The notes under the pieces were generated by a model, which was not told the DNA's origin, ran no database searches, and was given only the letters and a program-made list of their open reading frames with translations. A program made the translations under genes and the position numbers. Below, piece after piece: positions 5,334 to 44,660 of a stretch of 49,643 nucleotides of DNA (its first letter is position 1; each line of letters starts with the position of its first letter). Source of the DNA: Candidatus Curtissbacteria bacterium RIFCSPLOWO2_02_41_11 (lineage in GTDB: Bacteria > Patescibacteriota > Microgenomatia > Curtissbacterales > GWA2-41-24); assembly GCA_001775055.1 (NCBI GenBank), contig MFBU01000005.1, positions 1 to 49,643 on the forward strand, written 5' to 3'.

Positions 5334-7562
5334 GTGAGAAAATCGGCCCCGATTTTTTTATTGGGATTTATTACATTATTTTTTATCTGGCCACTTTTTA
5401 AATTCGGCTACACTGCCCAAACTGGTTCTTTGGAACCGGCGACTTTGGTTTTAGCAAGACGCGTGGCCGAGCAGGGTATTTTGGGTTGGGAATCGAGTTG
5501 GTATTTGGGTTTTCCGTTTAGATTTGCCGGACCACCTGCCTCTTGGTGGGTATTAGGTGCGATTGAGAAAATTGGCATTTTTGATCTTTTGGCAGTTTAT
5601 CGGATATTAAAAGCACTTGCTTTAGTTGCTTTTCCGATAACTTTTTATTTTTTGGCAAGGAGAGTATTTGGCGGTGTTTCAGCGGGTCCTGTCAAAGGCT
5701 CGTCCCAGCCGACGTCCTCGGACGAAAGGTCAACATTATTCGATACGGAAATTCATCAATTAACGTCCGGAGTAAATCGCGTCCTGCGGGCGCTCGATGG
5801 GACTCCCTCCGCCCGCGCCACCCGCTTTAAGATTGGAAATTGGAAATTGGAAATTGGAAATTCCCACTTCCCAGCCTTTTTAGCTAGCTTTTTTTTGATC
5901 ATGTTGCCTTCTGTCGGTTACATCTTCAAAAAGTTTTTTGTACTCGGGAGTGGGTTTGGCTTTGCCCCAGCTTGGATGCAGCAGGAATTTTCTCGAAGTT
6001 TGGGTCTGGCGCTTCTACCTTTGGTTTTAATTTTCTATTGGCGGCTTTTGGAGAAGATTAACTATTCTCGATTAGTCGCAACAATAATCGCAACAGCTCT
6101 GCTTTTTCTGACAGATGGGGTAACTTCGCTTGCACTTTTGGTTGGACTGACAGTAATCGTGATTATCGAGGCACATAAAGGTGATACTGCGCGCAAAGTA
6201 GCTGCCGTGGGTCTTGCACTGGTATTAGCGTTTTTACTAGATGCCTTTTTCTTTACACCGCAAAATATCCGCTTGATTGCTTCTTCGCCTTCGATTTCGG
6301 GAATTGGGCTGGTTTCATTTATTAAAGTGATGGTTCAGGCGGCAATCGGTCTTGGGCCGGCGGTTTTGGTAGTAGCTTCGATGAAGCTTTTAAGCAAAGG
6401 TAGGCAGTCTTTAGCTTTTATTTGGCTGTGGCTTTTGCCTTTTATTGCGATTACTTTGCTGTTTTATTTTTCCAACCGCCAGTTTTTGACCGAATACACC
6501 CGCTTTTTACCGGAGATGGAAATGGGGATTGCGCTTTTGTTGGGTTATTTGATTGCCCAAAAAGCATCAAGTATTAAGTATCAAGTATTAAGTATCCAGA
6601 GTTTATGGTCAGTTGTTGTCCTGGGAGCAATTTTGATTACTGTCGTGTACAGTTTTTATAAAACGCCGGCGCGCTGGCAAATATTTAAAACAAATCCTAA
6701 CATCAAGAACTCGGTTGAATATCAGATAGCCAAGTGGCTGGATCAGCAACTGACAACTAACAACAAACAACTAACAACTGACATCCCGGATAGGGTTTTT
6801 CTTTCCGGCTCAACGGCTTTTTGGCTTAATGAATTTGCGCCCGATGTTTGGCAGGTTAGAGGCGGCATTGATCAGGCTTCGACTAATCCGTCTTGGGCGC
6901 CGGCTGTCTATCATGTGCGCACAAGTCCAGATGCTGAAACTAGCCTTTTATGGCTGAAAGCCTTAAGGGTTGGTTATTTGGTCGTCCATGATCAAAGTTC
7001 GGGCGAGTATTACCATGATTTTGTCTATCCTGCAAAATTTGAGGGAAAGTTAGAGAAAGTTTTCGATAATCAGGCCGGCGATAGAATATATCGAATTGAT
7101 TCCCCAATGGCCTCTGTGACAACGCAAGCGGGCTTAAAAGACTTACTTTTGCCTGACCCTGCCAAAAGGAATGAACGACAAGCGCTTGATGTGTATACTG
7201 GTTGGTTACAAGCGGGAAAAAGGGCAAAATTGGAAGAAACAAGTAATGGACTTTTGGTAAAAGCTGAAATTGGCAAGGATGAAGTTTTGGCATTGGGAAT
7301 AACTTATGATCGCGGTTGGCAAGTCAAAGACTTACAGGGCGAAAAACTTAAGACAGCCGCTGATCCTTTGGGTAATTTAGTCATTTTTCCCCAAAAAGAA
7401 GGAGAGCAGACAATTACTTTGAAATTTCAAGAAGGAGTCGATCTTTGGCTGGGAATAGCTGTTTCTTTGGCGACTTTAGTCTTTATTAGATTTATCCTGT
7501 CCAAAAAACTGCCGATAATATTGGAAAGAGCCCAGAAAGGGTGGGAGGAGGAAGAGGAGTAA
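5334..7562 (+). CDS. Large GT-C-like membrane protein (YfhO / 6-pyruvoyl-THP-synthase-related-annotated type)
   Basis: GTG start; about 12 TM, then extracellular C-terminal region and terminal TM. Resembles the 15366 and 18265 proteins. Confidence 0.7.
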   Translation: MRKSAPIFLLGFITLFFIWPLFKFGYTAQTGSLEPATLVLARRVAEQGILGWESSWYLGFPFRFAGPPASWWVLGAIEKIGIFDLLAVYRILKALALVAFPITFYFLARRVFGGVSAGPVKGSSQPTSSDERSTLFDTEIHQLTSGVNRVLRALDGTPSARATRFKIGNWKLEIGNSHFPAFLASFFLIMLPSVGYIFKKFFVLGSGFGFAPAWMQQEFSRSLGLALLPLVLIFYWRLLEKINYSRLVATIIATALLFLTDGVTSLALLVGLTVIVIIEAHKGDTARKVAAVGLALVLAFLLDAFFFTPQNIRLIASSPSISGIGLVSFIKVMVQAAIGLGPAVLVVASMKLLSKGRQSLAFIWLWLLPFIAITLLFYFSNRQFLTEYTRFLPEMEMGIALLLGYLIAQKASSIKYQVLSIQSLWSVVVLGAILITVVYSFYKTPARWQIFKTNPNIKNSVEYQIAKWLDQQLTTNNKQLTTDIPDRVFLSGSTAFWLNEFAPDVWQVRGGIDQASTNPSWAPAVYHVRTSPDAETSLLWLKALRVGYLVVHDQSSGEYYHDFVYPAKFEGKLEKVFDNQAGDRIYRIDSPMASVTTQAGLKDLLLPDPAKRNERQALDVYTGWLQAGKRAKLEETSNGLLVKAEIGKDEVLALGITYDRGWQVKDLQGEKLKTAADPLGNLVIFPQKEGEQTITLKFQEGVDLWLGIAVSLATLVFIRFILSKKLPIILERAQKGWEEEEE
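5684..5830. repeat. GC-rich hairpin-containing in-frame insertion in GT-C gene
   Basis: Low-complexity peptide SAGPVKGSSQPTSSDERSTLFDTEIHQLTSGVNRVLRALDGTPSARATR interrupts a TM region. Internal inverted repeats CGTCC-TC-GGACG and GCGGGCG...CGCCCGC. Confidence 0.6.
5831..5866 (+). repeat. TTGGAAA heptamer tandem repeat in CDS
   Basis: gATTGGAAATTGGAAATTGGAAATTGGAAATTcc, period 7. Confidence 0.9.
6562..6600 (+). repeat. AAGTATT/AAGTATC heptamer tandem repeat in CDS
   Basis: AAGTATT-AAGTATC-AAGTATT-AAGTATC, period 7. Confidence 0.9.
6747..6783 (+). repeat. CAACTGA-type heptamer tandem repeat in CDS
   Basis: CAACTGA-CAACTAA-CAACAAA-CAACTAA-CAACTGA-CA, period 7. Confidence 0.9.
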
Positions 7563-7586
7563 CAATTGACAATTGACAATTGACAA
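7563..7586 (+). repeat. CAATTGA heptamer tandem repeat
   Basis: CAATTGA x3 + CAA immediately after the stop codon. Confidence 0.9.
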
Positions 7587-7780
7587 GTTAGGAGGTTACG
7601 GTGACGATGCCCGTATCGGTAAAGGTAATTGGGTTAAGGTTATGATGCCGGTATAGTTTAGGGGTCAGGTTTTTAGTGTTAAATGACTCCTAACTTTACC
7701 TCTCAACCAAACCGGTTTCCTTACCTTTGCACTTACCAATATACGAAACTGGTTTCGTGGCCGATCAACGCTAAACGATT
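7587..7780 (+). repeat. Repeat element sharing both ends with an insertion in the 23S gene
   Basis: Left end matches 40235-40268 at about 29/34; right end 7743-7778 matches 40316-40351 at about 31/36. Confidence 0.85.
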
Positions 7781-39923: not shown

Positions 39924-39996
39924 GGGCCGATAGCTCAGTTGGTAGAGCGTTGCATTTGCACTGCAAAGGTCAGGGGTTCGAATCCCCTTCGGTCCA
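39924..39996 (+). tRNA. tRNA-Ala (anticodon TGC), CCA not encoded
   Basis: Cloverleaf: acceptor GGGCCGA/TCGGTCC, anticodon arm TTGCA-TTTGCAC-TGCAA, T arm AGGGGTTCGAATCCCCT. Confidence 0.95.
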
Positions 39997-40057
39997 CAAA
40001 GCACCTTAACAATTGAATATGGAAAGAATTAATTTAATAAAGTTCGGTTTCACAAAA

Positions 40058-40083
40058 CTAGTGTTTTAGAAACTGAATGGAAT
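40058..40083 (+). other. 5' arm of pre-23S processing stem
   Basis: CTAGTGTTTTAGAAACTGAATGGAAT is nearly complementary to 43736-43761. Confidence 0.8.
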
Positions 40084-40234
40084 GGGTCAATTTTATGCGT
40101 TCAATGGATGCCTAGGTGCAACACACCGAAGAAGGACGTAGAGGGCTTACGATAAGTACCGGTGAGCTGCCGTCAAGCTTTGATCCGGTAATTTCCGAAT
40201 GGGGAAACCCGCTTGTGCATGGCACAAGAGGTTT

Positions 40235-40355
40235 GTTAAGAGGTTACGGTTACAATGCCAGTATCGTTTAGCGGTTACGTTTAGCGTTAATATTACGTTT
40301 GACGTCTAACTTTTTACGAAACGGGTTTCGTTACCGATAAACCCTAAACGAATTT
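40235..40355 (+). repeat. 23S insertion A, homologous to the intergenic repeat at 7587-7780
   Basis: Shared left and right ends; contains hairpin CGAAAC-GG-GTTTCG. Confidence 0.8.
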
Positions 40356-40530
40356 CTTGCGCTGTGCATGAGCACTTTAGTGCGAATACATAAGCGCTAG
40401 AGAGGGTACCGCCTGAACTGAAACATCTAAGTAAGGCGAGGAAAAGAAAACAAACCAGTGATTCCCTAAGTAGTGGCGAGCGAAAGGGGAAGAGCCTAAA
40501 CTTGAGCGAGGCATTGAGCCTCGCAGTGGG

Positions 40531-40633
40531 TAGTTAATAGTTGGTAGTAGGTAGTTGGCGGCAAATTAATTGCAGCTTCTACAAGCTACAAGCGAGTCGA
40601 GTCCGACTCGACGAGTGAACTACTAACTACAAG
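40531..40633 (+). repeat. 23S insertion B, heptamer-phased arms
   Basis: Left arm TAGTTAA-TAGTTGG-TAGTAGG-TAGTTGG; right arm GAACTACTAACTACA; inner GAGTCGAGTCCGACTCGAC palindrome. Confidence 0.8.
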
Positions 40634-40859
40634 TCGAATTCATTCGGCGTACTGCGAAGCTGAAAGCTTCGCTTGAGGGTTGCGGGACTCAAATATGAGA
40701 CTATTGCGGATAGCAGAATAATCTGGAATGGTTGGCCATAGATGGTGAAAGCCCAGTATGTGAAATTCAAGATAGCTCTATGAGTATCCCAAGTACTACG
40801 GGACACGCGAAATCCTGTAGGAATCCGGCTCGACCATGAGCCAAGGCTAAATATGTGTT

Positions 40860-40899
<40 letters not shown>

Positions 40900-40958
40900 G
40901 AGTACCCCGGAAGGGGAATGAAAAGTACCTGAAATTGAACGCTAACAAGCAATCGGAG

Positions 40959-41056
40959 CCCCGCTCTTTTTGCGCGTAAGAAGACCATGATTTAAGGCTA
41001 GTAAAGTCGTGTTTAGATTAAGTCACGGTTTTGTCTTGTGTCCAAAAAGAGCGGGG
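40959..41056 (+). repeat. 23S insertion C, extended helix
   Basis: CCCCGCTCTTTTTG (40959-40972) perfectly complementary to CAAAAAGAGCGGGG (41043-41056). Confidence 0.75.
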
Positions 41057-41675
41057 TGACGGTGTGCCTATTGAAGAATGAACCGGTGAGTTTTATCATG
41101 CTGTAGTCTAACCCCGCTAAGCGGGGGGAGGCAGAGTGAAAGCAAGCGTTAATAGCGCGTTTTAATACAGCATGTTAAAGACCCGAAACCGCGTGAGCTA
41201 ACCATGACCAGGATGAAGTCCCGCTAACGCGGGATGGAGGTCCGAACCCGTGTCAGATGCAAGTGGTTGGGATGAGTTGTGGTTAGGGGTGATATGCCAA
41301 TCGAACGCGGAGATAGCTGGTTCTCCCCGAAATATATTTAGGTATAGCCCTTGTCTAACTTCACAGGGGTAGAGCACTGAATGGGTGATGCGAAGCAATT
41401 TGTGTCATTCAATCAAACTACGAATACTGTGAAACAAATTGGGCGAGGAGTCAGTCCGACCCGGATAAGCGGGCCAGGGCTAAAGGGAAACAACCCAGAT
41501 CCAAAGCTAAGGTCCCAAAGTGTATTTTAAGTGTTAAAGGTAGTACTAGCGCCAAGACAGCAAGGAGGTTGGCTTAGAGGCAGCCATCCTTTAAAGAAAG
41601 CGTAACAGCTCACTTGTCGATTGCGGTAGTGCGCCGACAATGTACCGGGGCTCAAAAATACCACCGAAGCTTGGG

Positions 41676-41797
41676 ATTTGTCCGAAGGACAAATATCGCG
41701 GAACTAAGCAGAACTTTACGCAGAAATACGCAGGATTGTCGGCGTTATTCCGCGTTTAGTTCAGCGTTTTTCAGCGGTACTTGCCCTTCGGGCAAGT
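41676..41797 (+). repeat. 23S insertion D, roughly decamer-phased arms plus nested hairpins
   Basis: GCGGAACTAAGCAGAACTTTACGCAGAAATACGCAGG vs CGCGTTTAGTTCAGCGTTTTTCAGCGG; hairpins ATTTGTCC-GAA-GGACAAAT and ACTTGCCC-TTC-GGGCAAGT. Confidence 0.75.
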
Positions 41798-42354
41798 GGT
41801 AGGGGAGCGTTTGCATTGCGGTGAAGGTCACGGCGTAAGCCGGACTGGAGCGATGCGAAGTGAGAATGCCGGTATGAGTAGCGAAAGTCCCGTGGGAATC
41901 GGGACCGCCGAATGTCCAAGGTTTCCTACGCAACGTTCGTCGACGTAGGGTTAGTCGGTCCTAAGGCGAGGCCAGAAGGCGTAGTCGATGGATAAGCAGT
42001 TAATATTCTGCTACTTTGGCAAAATCGTTTTAAAGCAAAGGGAAGACGAAAATGGAAAATTCCTAGGTCGAAATGATACGGCCCCTAAAAAGTAAGAAAG
42101 TAAAATGTGGAAAATCCCTTTTTATGATTATTCGAGCTTTGATGGTTAGCTGCCGCAAGGTGGCAAAAGGAAAAGTTTCAATTTCCAAGAAATTTTCTCG
42201 TTGTTAGATTTTATCAAAACCGTACCTAAACCGACACAGGTGGACTGGTATTAGAGTACCAAGGCGAGCGAGAAAACTATCCTTAAGGAACTCGGCAATA
42301 TAACTGGACGTACCTTTGGTAGATGTCCTCCCTGGCCGTCTTTCAGACGGCTAC

Positions 42355-42451
42355 AGTTGACATTTGACATCTGACAACTGACAAAATTGGAATTTTTTAT
42401 TTACAAATTTTCCGCTTAAGTCAATTGTCAATTGTTATTTGTTATTTGTTG
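42355..42451 (+). repeat. 23S insertion E, heptamer-phased arms
   Basis: Left arm TTGACAT-TTGACAT-CTGACAA-CTGACAA; right arm TCAATTG-TCAATTG-TTATTTG-TTATTTG-TTG. Confidence 0.85.
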
Positions 42452-42778
42452 CCGCCCGACGGGCGGCTGGGGCGCAGTTAACGACGCCAGGCGACTGTTT
42501 AACAAAAACACAGGTCTCTGCAAAGTCGAAAGACGAAGTATAGAGGCTGACACCTGCCCAGTGCTCGTAGGTTAATCGTCTGAGGTGATCTGTCTTTGGA
42601 CAGTGAGCTTCGGATGCAAGCCCGGGTAAACGGCAGCAGTAACTATAACTGTTCTAAGGTAGCGAAATTCCTTGTCGGGCAAGTTCCGACCCGCACGAAA
42701 GGTTGAACGACTCGGCGACTGTCTTGAGGATAGACTCGGCGAAATTGCAATGGCTGTGAAGATGCGGCCAACTTGCAC

Positions 42779-42809
<31 letters not shown>

Positions 42810-42953
42810 CAGCTTGGCATTGATTTGGAGATTAGACTTGTATAGCGTAGGAGGGAGCCAGGTACCGTTTGGTACCTGGCGACAATGTAACACCTCCCGG
42901 TTTGCTTTTCAAATCTTACCGTTTGTCCTAATAAAATACGGGAGACGGGACAG

Positions 42954-43007
<54 letters not shown>

Positions 43008-43150
43008 TACAAAGGTCGACTCAACTCCTACAGAAACGGAGCGTTAGAGTGCAAAGGCATAAGTCGGCTTAACTGTAAGTGGTACATCACGAGCAGATGC
43101 GAAAGCAGGTCTTAGTGATCCTCACGTTGCTTATGGGAGCGCGTGAGCTT

Positions 43151-43183
<33 letters not shown>

Positions 43184-43613
43184 GATCTTCCCCAAGAGTC
43201 CATATCGACGGGAAGGTTTGGCACCTCGATGTCGGCTCACCGTATCCTCCCGCTGAAGTAGGCGGGAAGGGTTGGGCTGTTCGCCCATTAAAACGGTACG
43301 CGAGCTGGGTTCAGAACGGCGTGAGCCAGTTCGGCCTCTATCCGGTGCAAGCGTTTGATACTTGAGGGGGGTCACCACTAGTACGAGAGGACCGTGGTGA
43401 GTTAGCCTCTAGTGTGCCAGTTGTCACATCAGTGGCAGTGCTGGGTAGCCACGCTAATAACTGAGAAGCGCTGAAAGCATCTAAGCGCCAAACAGGCCCC
43501 AAGACTAGGTATCTGTAAGATCCGTTGTAGACTACGACGTTGATAGGCGGCAGGTGTAAAGCAAGTAATTGTTGTCGCGCGCAAGCGCGAGAGCGCTTAG
43601 CGGAATGCGTGGA

Positions 43614-43679
43614 CTATTAACTAGAAACAAGAAACCTTAAACAATTTCTAAAGTTTCTGGTTTCAAGTTTCATGTTAAT
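43614..43679 (+). repeat. 23S insertion F, heptamer-phased arms near the 3' end
   Basis: Left arm ATTAAC-TAGAAAC-AAGAAAC-CTTAAAC; right arm AGTTTCT-GGTTTCA-AGTTTCA-TGTTAAT; arms near reverse complements. Confidence 0.85.
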
Positions 43680-43735
43680 TGTTCGCCAGCTTCGCTGGCG
43701 TTCAGCTTAGCCGTACTAATAGATCGAATGACCAA

Positions 43736-43761
43736 ATTCCATTCAGTTTCGAAGACACTAG
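43736..43761 (+). other. 3' arm of pre-23S processing stem
   Basis: ATTCCATTCAGTTTCGAAGACACTAG. Confidence 0.8.
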
Positions 43762-43768
43762 ATATGTA

Positions 43769-43914
43769 TGCGAATCAATGCGAATAGGTATGGCGGTTTA
43801 TCTTATTCGCTCAAATTCGCATGGGAGGATTACTTCTGTGAGTAGTTCTTAGCATGCGAATATAAACGAATATTTTAAGGCTGATAAGCACATTAGATAA
43901 AATTCGCGTATTGT
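43769..43914. repeat. Decamer-phased double-hairpin element, copy 2
   Basis: TGCGAATCAATGCGAAT...TATTCGCTCAAATTCGCATG; core resembles copy 1 (TATTCGCTTAAATTCGCGTG). Confidence 0.7.
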
Positions 43915-43973
43915 AACTTGACAAAGTCAAGCTAAAGCGCTTAAATATAATCAGTTTTCACAAGCCTGCCCAA

Positions 43974-44003
43974 AACATTCCCATTAATCGGGGTGTTTTT
44001 TTT
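43974..44003 (+). terminator. Rho-independent terminator-like hairpin after 23S
   Basis: AACATTCC-C-ATTAATC-GGGGTGTT followed by T tract. Confidence 0.65.
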
Positions 44004-44015
44004 GGGAGGAAAATT

Positions 44016-44480
44016 ATGATTGTTGAAAGATTAGACTATTTTGGCAAAATTGCTGCTAGAAAAGATCCAGATAATTATGAGCAGCAGTTAGAGCCGGAAG
44101 CAATCGGCTTTATAAAAGGGGTATTTAAGCTTCACCCTGATATTAGGATTCATTTGGCTAGACGTGATCCAAGAGTCTGTGAATTACTGCACACCGCTGA
44201 AGACAGGGATGCTTTTAAGCAGGCCATGGAGGGAGTTTTCGGAGGGGATACAGTCCATGTACTTGCGACAGCGGAACAGGATTTAATGGAATTAGTAGGA
44301 CCGGTAATGACTGGAAAGCCTTCTCTAAGATTAGCAGAAATCTATGCGGATGATCCAGAGATGGTGTTGCATTTAAAAGATATCGTGACAACTGCAAAAA
44401 GGATTATTGGCGGGCTTAAAGATGAATTGCAACCGATTGTCAGAGAACCTGTTTTGGTACCCGCTTCCATAACTTATTGA
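44016..44480 (+). CDS. Hypothetical 154-aa protein encoded between 23S and 5S
   Basis: ATG with SD GGGAGGA 44004-44010; ordinary soluble composition. Confidence 0.75.
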   Translation: MIVERLDYFGKIAARKDPDNYEQQLEPEAIGFIKGVFKLHPDIRIHLARRDPRVCELLHTAEDRDAFKQAMEGVFGGDTVHVLATAEQDLMELVGPVMTGKPSLRLAEIYADDPEMVLHLKDIVTTAKRIIGGLKDELQPIVREPVLVPASITY

Positions 44481-44506
44481 TTTTTCCATGACATTTTTGC
44501 TAGAAT
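44477..44506 (+). promoter_or_regulatory. Extended -10 promoter for 5S rRNA
   Basis: TTGATT - 18 nt - TAGAAT with TGn before the -10 (TTTTGCTAGAAT); predicted +1 coincides with the 5S 5' end. Confidence 0.6.
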
Positions 44507-44513
44507 TTCATTT

Positions 44514-44629
44514 GCTGGTGTCTGTAGCGATATGGAACCACTCCTTCCCATTTCGAACAGGATAGTGAAACGTATCAGCGGCGACAATAGTGCCTGGGCA
44601 ACTGGGTGCGAAGATAGCTCGATGCCAGC
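44514..44629 (+). rRNA. 5S ribosomal RNA
   Basis: GCTGGTGTCTGTAGCGATATGGAACCACTCCTTCCCATTTCGAACAGGATAGTGAAAC...GATGCCAGC; termini pair. Confidence 0.92.
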
Positions 44630-44660
44630 AATTTTTTTTTGAAAAAATTGCTGTGCTCGC

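Follow-up and report, generated by a model that had tools for sequence, protein, structure and literature searches.

Why should an intergenic spacer and a 23S rRNA gene of the same bacterium appear to hold the same short repeat? The window, meaning the whole 49,643 nt stretch of DNA analyzed here, is part of contig C5 of a 1.08 Mb genome in 25 contigs (G000). A first-pass annotation, made from its letters alone, had pointed out that the stretches starting at 7587 and 40235 share their left and right ends around unlike middles, and had proposed a small mobile or recombining element able to sit in a ribosomal RNA. Both pairs of end blocks are real, and their likeness is well beyond chance: the 23S copy matches another intergenic copy at E 1.9e-18, and the parts of the 7587 site score above the best of 200 shuffles. 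The right ends at 7743 and 40316 agree at 31/36 positions, as originally counted, while for the left ends the likeness stood and the count changed, from about 29/34 to 28/32 ungapped. The 40235 block also falls where it had been placed, within the 23S gene (40087-43606). The middles do differ, but they are no arbitrary core: two copies are nested at 7587, whereas the 23S site is a full single palindrome (40235-40351). A single family, an imperfect palindrome of about 117 nt designated element A, is present at both. The intergenic site is laid out as follows.

7562-7586, no strand assigned: array of TTGACAA-type heptamers directly abutting element A; this repeat type is widely dispersed
7587-7621, + strand: left terminus of the outer element A copy, in a spacer, identical to the 40235 block at 28/32 positions (best score 24, shuffle maximum 12)
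7622-7737, no strand assigned: inner nested copy of element A, more diverged (R1 match on the minus strand, C5:7622-7737; score 42, shuffle maximum 18)
7738-7780, + strand: right terminus of the outer element A copy, identical to the 23S site at 31/36 positions (best score 29, shuffle maximum 14)

The scores are against other copies of element A, and the background is the best of 200 shuffles. R1 is a covariance model of 117 positions prepared from A1, an alignment of 14 copies, and it detects the inner copy independently of the outer one. Element A at 7587 is thus double, one copy enclosing another.

The first-pass annotation had called for a search for further copies and for a covariance model, and both are now available. 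R1 gives eight sites in G000, which together hold nine copies; seven of the sites are intergenic and the eighth in helix 9 of the 23S rRNA (40235-40351), and it matches element A in 7 of the 19 genomes of the family. In a search of the whole 1.08 Mb genome the 23S copy aligned with intergenic C5:100552-100661 (78% over its length, E 1.9e-18). Across the same genome a query spanning 40225-40360 also matched C12:22185-22293, C7:37838-37953, and C5:121638-121684, and the 7587 stretch additionally matched C7:37139-37178. The likeness of the two sites in the window therefore reflects a genome-wide family. Element A is probably a non-autonomous mobile palindromic repeat of about 117 bp, similar to MITEs and to the Rickettsia palindromic elements (RPEs). 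The structure also goes beyond what had been noticed before: nesting, conserved mismatches, in-frame copies in the proteins of relatives, and other dispersed repeats in 23S helices.

In folding, element A forms a long stem-loop, an imperfect palindrome with the size and fold of an RPE. Its core arms are approximately GGTNACGAWGCCMGTWTCGT and ACGAWACGGGCWTCGTNACC. Among 20 opposed arm positions, nine are paired in all 14 aligned copies and six more in 13/14. Positions 4, 9, and 16 are paired in only 2/14, 4/14, and 2/14 copies, and mostly hold like letters (A-A or T-T). The same mismatches are seen in copies outside alignment A1 (paired in 1/11, 2/11, and 4/11), so positions 4, 9, and 16 of 20 are kept unpaired across 25 copies (14 aligned, 11 outside). 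Most copies can be derived from one ancestral pattern readable in either direction. A small number, including the 23S copy, are of mixed polarity, meaning that the mismatches were retained while the letters changed. No compensatory changes were found in the arms of element A, which are nearly invariant; what is informative is the conserved mismatches. Fixed mismatches are known in hairpins that are read as single-stranded DNA, such as REPs, IS200/IS605 ends, and attC sites. By analogy, those of element A may be a lead toward recognition of a single-stranded DNA hairpin. Integron attC sites themselves were considered because of the extrahelical bases and were dropped, as the ends of element A do not have the RYYYAAC/GTTRRRY arrangement.

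Of the alternatives to a mobile palindrome of the RPE kind, the one that survives best is that element A is of the REP/REPIN type and is mobilised by a genome-encoded RAYT (Y1) transposase. REP hairpins have a mismatch, the element A hairpin has its mismatches at fixed positions, and Y1_Tnp genes occur in 17 of the 19 genomes, with two in G000. However, when contig coordinates were compared and the DNA of locus L102 was read, no copy of element A adjoined a transposase gene in any genome, whereas REPs would be expected to flank theirs. The presence of element A does not track Y1 number either, since G017 and G018 have seven and eight Y1 matches and no element A, and copies in frame within genes are untypical of REPs. 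A REP/RAYT identity is thus improbable. Separately, the Y1 transposase-like gene L102 (G000 C25:25983-26312) is flanked on both sides by the short direct repeat TCAAGACCCGGACTT, which may be this gene's own REP and differs from element A.

The second question concerns how a copy came to lie in the 23S rRNA. The gene and its inserts are arranged as follows.

40087-43606, + strand: 23S rRNA gene (Rfam RF02541, 2363 bits, model 1-2925)
40211-40234, + strand: 5' side of the helix 9 stem that bears element A (Rfam alignment; fold)
40235-40351, + strand: full copy of element A, an apical extension of helix 9 (R1 117.7 bits, E 7.3e-30; region fold z -6.5)
40352-40373, + strand: 3' side of the helix 9 stem (Rfam alignment; fold)
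40509-40680, + strand: second insert, a TAGTTGG-type hairpin (Rfam model about 282-288)
41680-41805, + strand: insert in helix 45 (Rfam alignment), with sequence common to C5:86489
42341-42455, + strand: insert, a TTGACA-type palindrome whose repeat family is also found in spacers

The element A insert maps to the hairpin at Rfam model positions 131-149, which is helix 9, and folds with it as one continuous stem (z -6.5). It replaces the helix 9 loop and is closed by a long stem, as in an IVS, and an IVS-type insert is the best reading of element A in 23S. A group I or group II intron was rejected, as no intron core appears among the Rfam matches of the window, which are confined to 23S, 5S, and tRNA. 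The tRNA-Ala, 23S, and 5S genes are clustered at 39924-44630 of the window; the 16S gene lies apart from them, on contig C20 (C20:53723-55208).

The helix 9 copy is not conserved in relatives, and further copies exist in G000 and in relatives, so that neither outcome named by the first-pass annotation as refuting its proposal is observed. Helix 9 is short and empty in G012 and G013, where the flanks have diverged and locate the insertion point only approximately. Unrelated hairpins occupy it in G005 (CTTAAGT type), G006 (TAGTTAA type), G007 (TTTCTAA type), and G017 (AATTTTCA type). G005, G006, and G013 do carry element A, but elsewhere in the genome.

An ordinary IVS or helix 9 expansion could instead have arisen where it stands, through slippage and template switching, and would then resemble the intergenic copies by convergence of heptamer-rich low-complexity sequence. 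Several helix 9 inserts of the family are indeed built of short near-tandem heptamers (TTTCTAA, AATTTTCA, CTTAAGT), and G000 and G005 have the lower stem of helix 9 in common and different tips. However, the 23S copy aligns over its full length to unlinked copies (E 1.9e-18; with R1, E 7.3e-30), sharing both their arms and their mismatched positions, and low-complexity convergence would not give a common 117-nt consensus. Growth in place is largely refuted by this and has very little left in its favor.

Dispersed repeats also account for other inserts of the same 23S gene. The insert at 40509-40680 and the one in helix 9 of G006 are copies of a single element (74% over 170 nt, E 1e-24), and parts of the former are dispersed in G000. 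The 42341-42455 insert presumably lies around helix 63, judging from E. coli 23S, and its repeat family also occurs in the G006 16S gene and, again in G006, in the helix 45 position. Helix 25 (40956-41060) carries a long, nearly perfect stem (-46.8 kcal/mol), of which no other copies were found in the sequence examined, the sole such case among the large 23S inserts. The G000 16S gene is near-normal in length (1486 nt). The G006 16S gene (L111, C22:52489-54476) exceeds it by about 450 nt and includes the TTGACA-type palindrome of 42341-42455.

Among 191 genomes of the class, 11 contain element A at a stricter R1 cut-off (E <= 1e-8), four of them outside the family; a search at the order level gave the same result as the family search. 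Two G000 copies are found at orthologous places in other genera (C5:121631 with G005 and C7:37140 with G003), the DNA alignment running across the element in both cases. Part of the element A family is therefore old and vertically inherited. Such orthologous spacer copies, together with the conserved hairpin and the many copies that lie only a few bases from where a gene starts or ends, could suggest a hairpin with a function as an RNA or in regulation (attenuator, terminator, or processing site) that is selected in spacers, with the 23S and protein copies as accidental captures. This is highly unlikely, because the palindrome works in both orientations (R1 scores both strands), element A is absent from most relatives, and it is found nested and inside coding frames. 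That the dispersed copies are scattered 23S rRNA fragments, as the high rank of the 23S copy among the best-scoring copies might hint, is already refuted and scarcely credible, since no 23S sequence accompanies element A at its other sites and G005, G006, and G013 possess the element with none in their 23S. In G089, from another family of the class, a copy (L149:1501-1592) lies 5 nt ahead of a gene resembling that of ribosomal protein L22; an S3-like gene follows, and the copy is apparently within a ribosomal protein operon.

The copies inside protein genes bear on a palindrome of the RPE kind. Three copies of element A lie inside ORFs, all in relatives and none in G000, and these three make up the in-frame evidence. 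They are in G005 Obg and G002 leucyl-tRNA synthetase (LeuRS), whose families were confirmed (TIGR02729 and TIGR00396, respectively), and in a glycosyltransferase-like ORF at a G002 contig end, which is named from its likeness to a G000 protein and itself matched no family. The three copies share a single reading frame and sense (GNEARIVRGK..KRQTLNEMGLVTD, GNEARIVKGK..KRQTLNETSLVTD, GNEVRIVRR), giving the motif GNE(A/V)RIV. Element A thus occurs both in spacers and, in one reading frame, within conserved protein genes, as RPEs do.

As with RPEs, homologous genes in relatives lack the element at the corresponding position. In G005 Obg the profile matches end at residue 98 (profile position 97) and restart at residue 155 (profile position 101), a gap of about 56 residues in the protein versus about 3 in the profile. 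This loop is variable and lacks element A in other relatives. The G002 LeuRS insert sits after RVWKLFEAVEE; the same loop is empty in G013 and contains different inserts in G001, G012, and G014.

The LeuRS inserts of G001 and G014 represent a second repeat, with the peptide pattern GPV..F.PASA..LRAVG.P. It is also found in frame in G000, in ComEC, a glycosyltransferase, and topoisomerase I (C5:79283-79403, C5:107387-107505, and C25:22462-22586; loci L086, L087, and L095). The insert of G014 LeuRS, from another genus, has 92.6% identity over 121 nt to that of G000 topoisomerase, whereas the LeuRS proteins of G014 and G000 are much less alike. A strong RNA hairpin was predicted against simple shuffles in one of four cases of the second repeat tested, and it is not claimed to be palindromic in general. 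G017 Obg (L157) has three second-repeat inserts, two of them in loops of variable length among relatives. Heptamer repeats of the TAGTTGG and TTGACAA types are also present inside G000 ORFs (L086:12639-12676, L096:8168-8217, L097:11241-11290), one of which is arginyl-tRNA synthetase (family match confirmed).

Element A is dispersed and nested, one 23S helix and one protein loop are filled with it in some species and empty in others, and it is read in one coding frame. The idea of a small mobile element able to sit in an rRNA is therefore supported, its movement being deduced from comparison of sequences between species. The contrast between empty and filled sites is one between species, in draft genomes. 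Inverted arms are present; no target-site duplication at element A was resolved and no cognate transposase was found.

With its paired arms, an inserted copy would fold back on itself and return the chain close to where it departed, lengthening an RNA hairpin loop (helix 9) or a protein loop (Obg, LeuRS) while leaving the essential gene intact. Because the chain ends would be brought together in this way, an essential gene could tolerate the insert. The 23S copy may either be kept as an expansion or be excised by RNase III, which would give a fragmented 23S rRNA; an RNase III gene is found in all 19 genomes, including G000. The weakest step is the route of movement. The most likely route would be a DNA hairpin recognised by a trans-acting enzyme, a doubtful proposal, and the choice of a Y1 (HUH) transposase as that enzyme is a guess and equally uncertain. 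Mismatches at fixed stem positions would suit hairpin recognition by such an enzyme.

A wider reading can be offered tentatively, as conceivable but short of likely. Several coding palindrome families may be circulating in these genomes, time and again settling in, and displacing each other from, a common set of permissive loops in rRNAs and essential proteins. Short IVS-type 23S inserts in these bacteria would then be mobile palindromes that move via mismatch-bearing DNA hairpins.

Among known systems, element A resembles REPs and REPINs as a dispersed, imperfect, non-autonomous palindrome with fixed mismatches, but differs in the lack of an adjoining RAYT gene, in its length of about 117 bp, and in having copies in protein genes and rRNA. 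The closer relation is to the RPEs of Rickettsia, palindromes of about 105-150 bp (105-146 bp in Rickettsia) with several families per genome that are found in spacers, in tmRNA and RNase P RNA, and in frame in conserved protein genes with a conserved peptide (PMC2229807, PMC10969869). Besides Rickettsia, Wolbachia and Methanocaldococcus jannaschii also have coding palindromes (PMC2229807, PMC10969869). Element A shares with RPEs the palindromic form, a similar size, and the combination of spacers, in-frame protein copies, and a structural RNA gene. It differs in belonging to another lineage, probably patescibacterial to judge from the 1.08 Mb genome and the insert-rich 23S, in sitting in 23S rRNA, and in its peptide (GNEARIV...), which looks unrelated. 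Fixed unpaired stem positions are described here for element A, and no report of them in RPEs was found in a partial literature. A similarly partial search found no report of an RPE-like palindrome in 23S rRNA or in Patescibacteria, and the novelty of a 23S-borne, RPE-like palindrome in this lineage is provisional. If the reading is true, RPE-like coding palindromes extend to another lineage of very small genomes and are a concrete source of length variation in its rRNAs and essential proteins.

The last comparison is with the IVSs themselves. IVSs in 23S helices 9 and 45 are known, helix 9 being a known IVS helix in Alphaproteobacteria (PMC4990558). Like IVSs of helices 9, 25, and 45, element A is a stem-loop, here extending the helix 9 hairpin, in a genome that encodes RNase III. 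The difference is that its family is also dispersed outside rRNA and in protein genes; excision may occur, and there is no ORF for the S23 protein. In CPR bacteria, 23S genes contain unclassified inserts, most of them shorter than 200 bp and many located where IVSs are known (Tsurumaki et al. 2024, PMC11270868), and the short element A insert in helix 9 is of this sort. The terms repeat, hairpin, and intergenic are absent from the main text of that study, which draws no link to dispersed repeats. How short 23S inserts arose in bacteria has been described as unclear, transposition being no more than a hypothesis (PMC4990558). The insert described here, in a classical IVS helix, is one member of a palindrome family that is dispersed and also enters protein genes in frame, which makes a mobile-element origin of IVSs directly testable.
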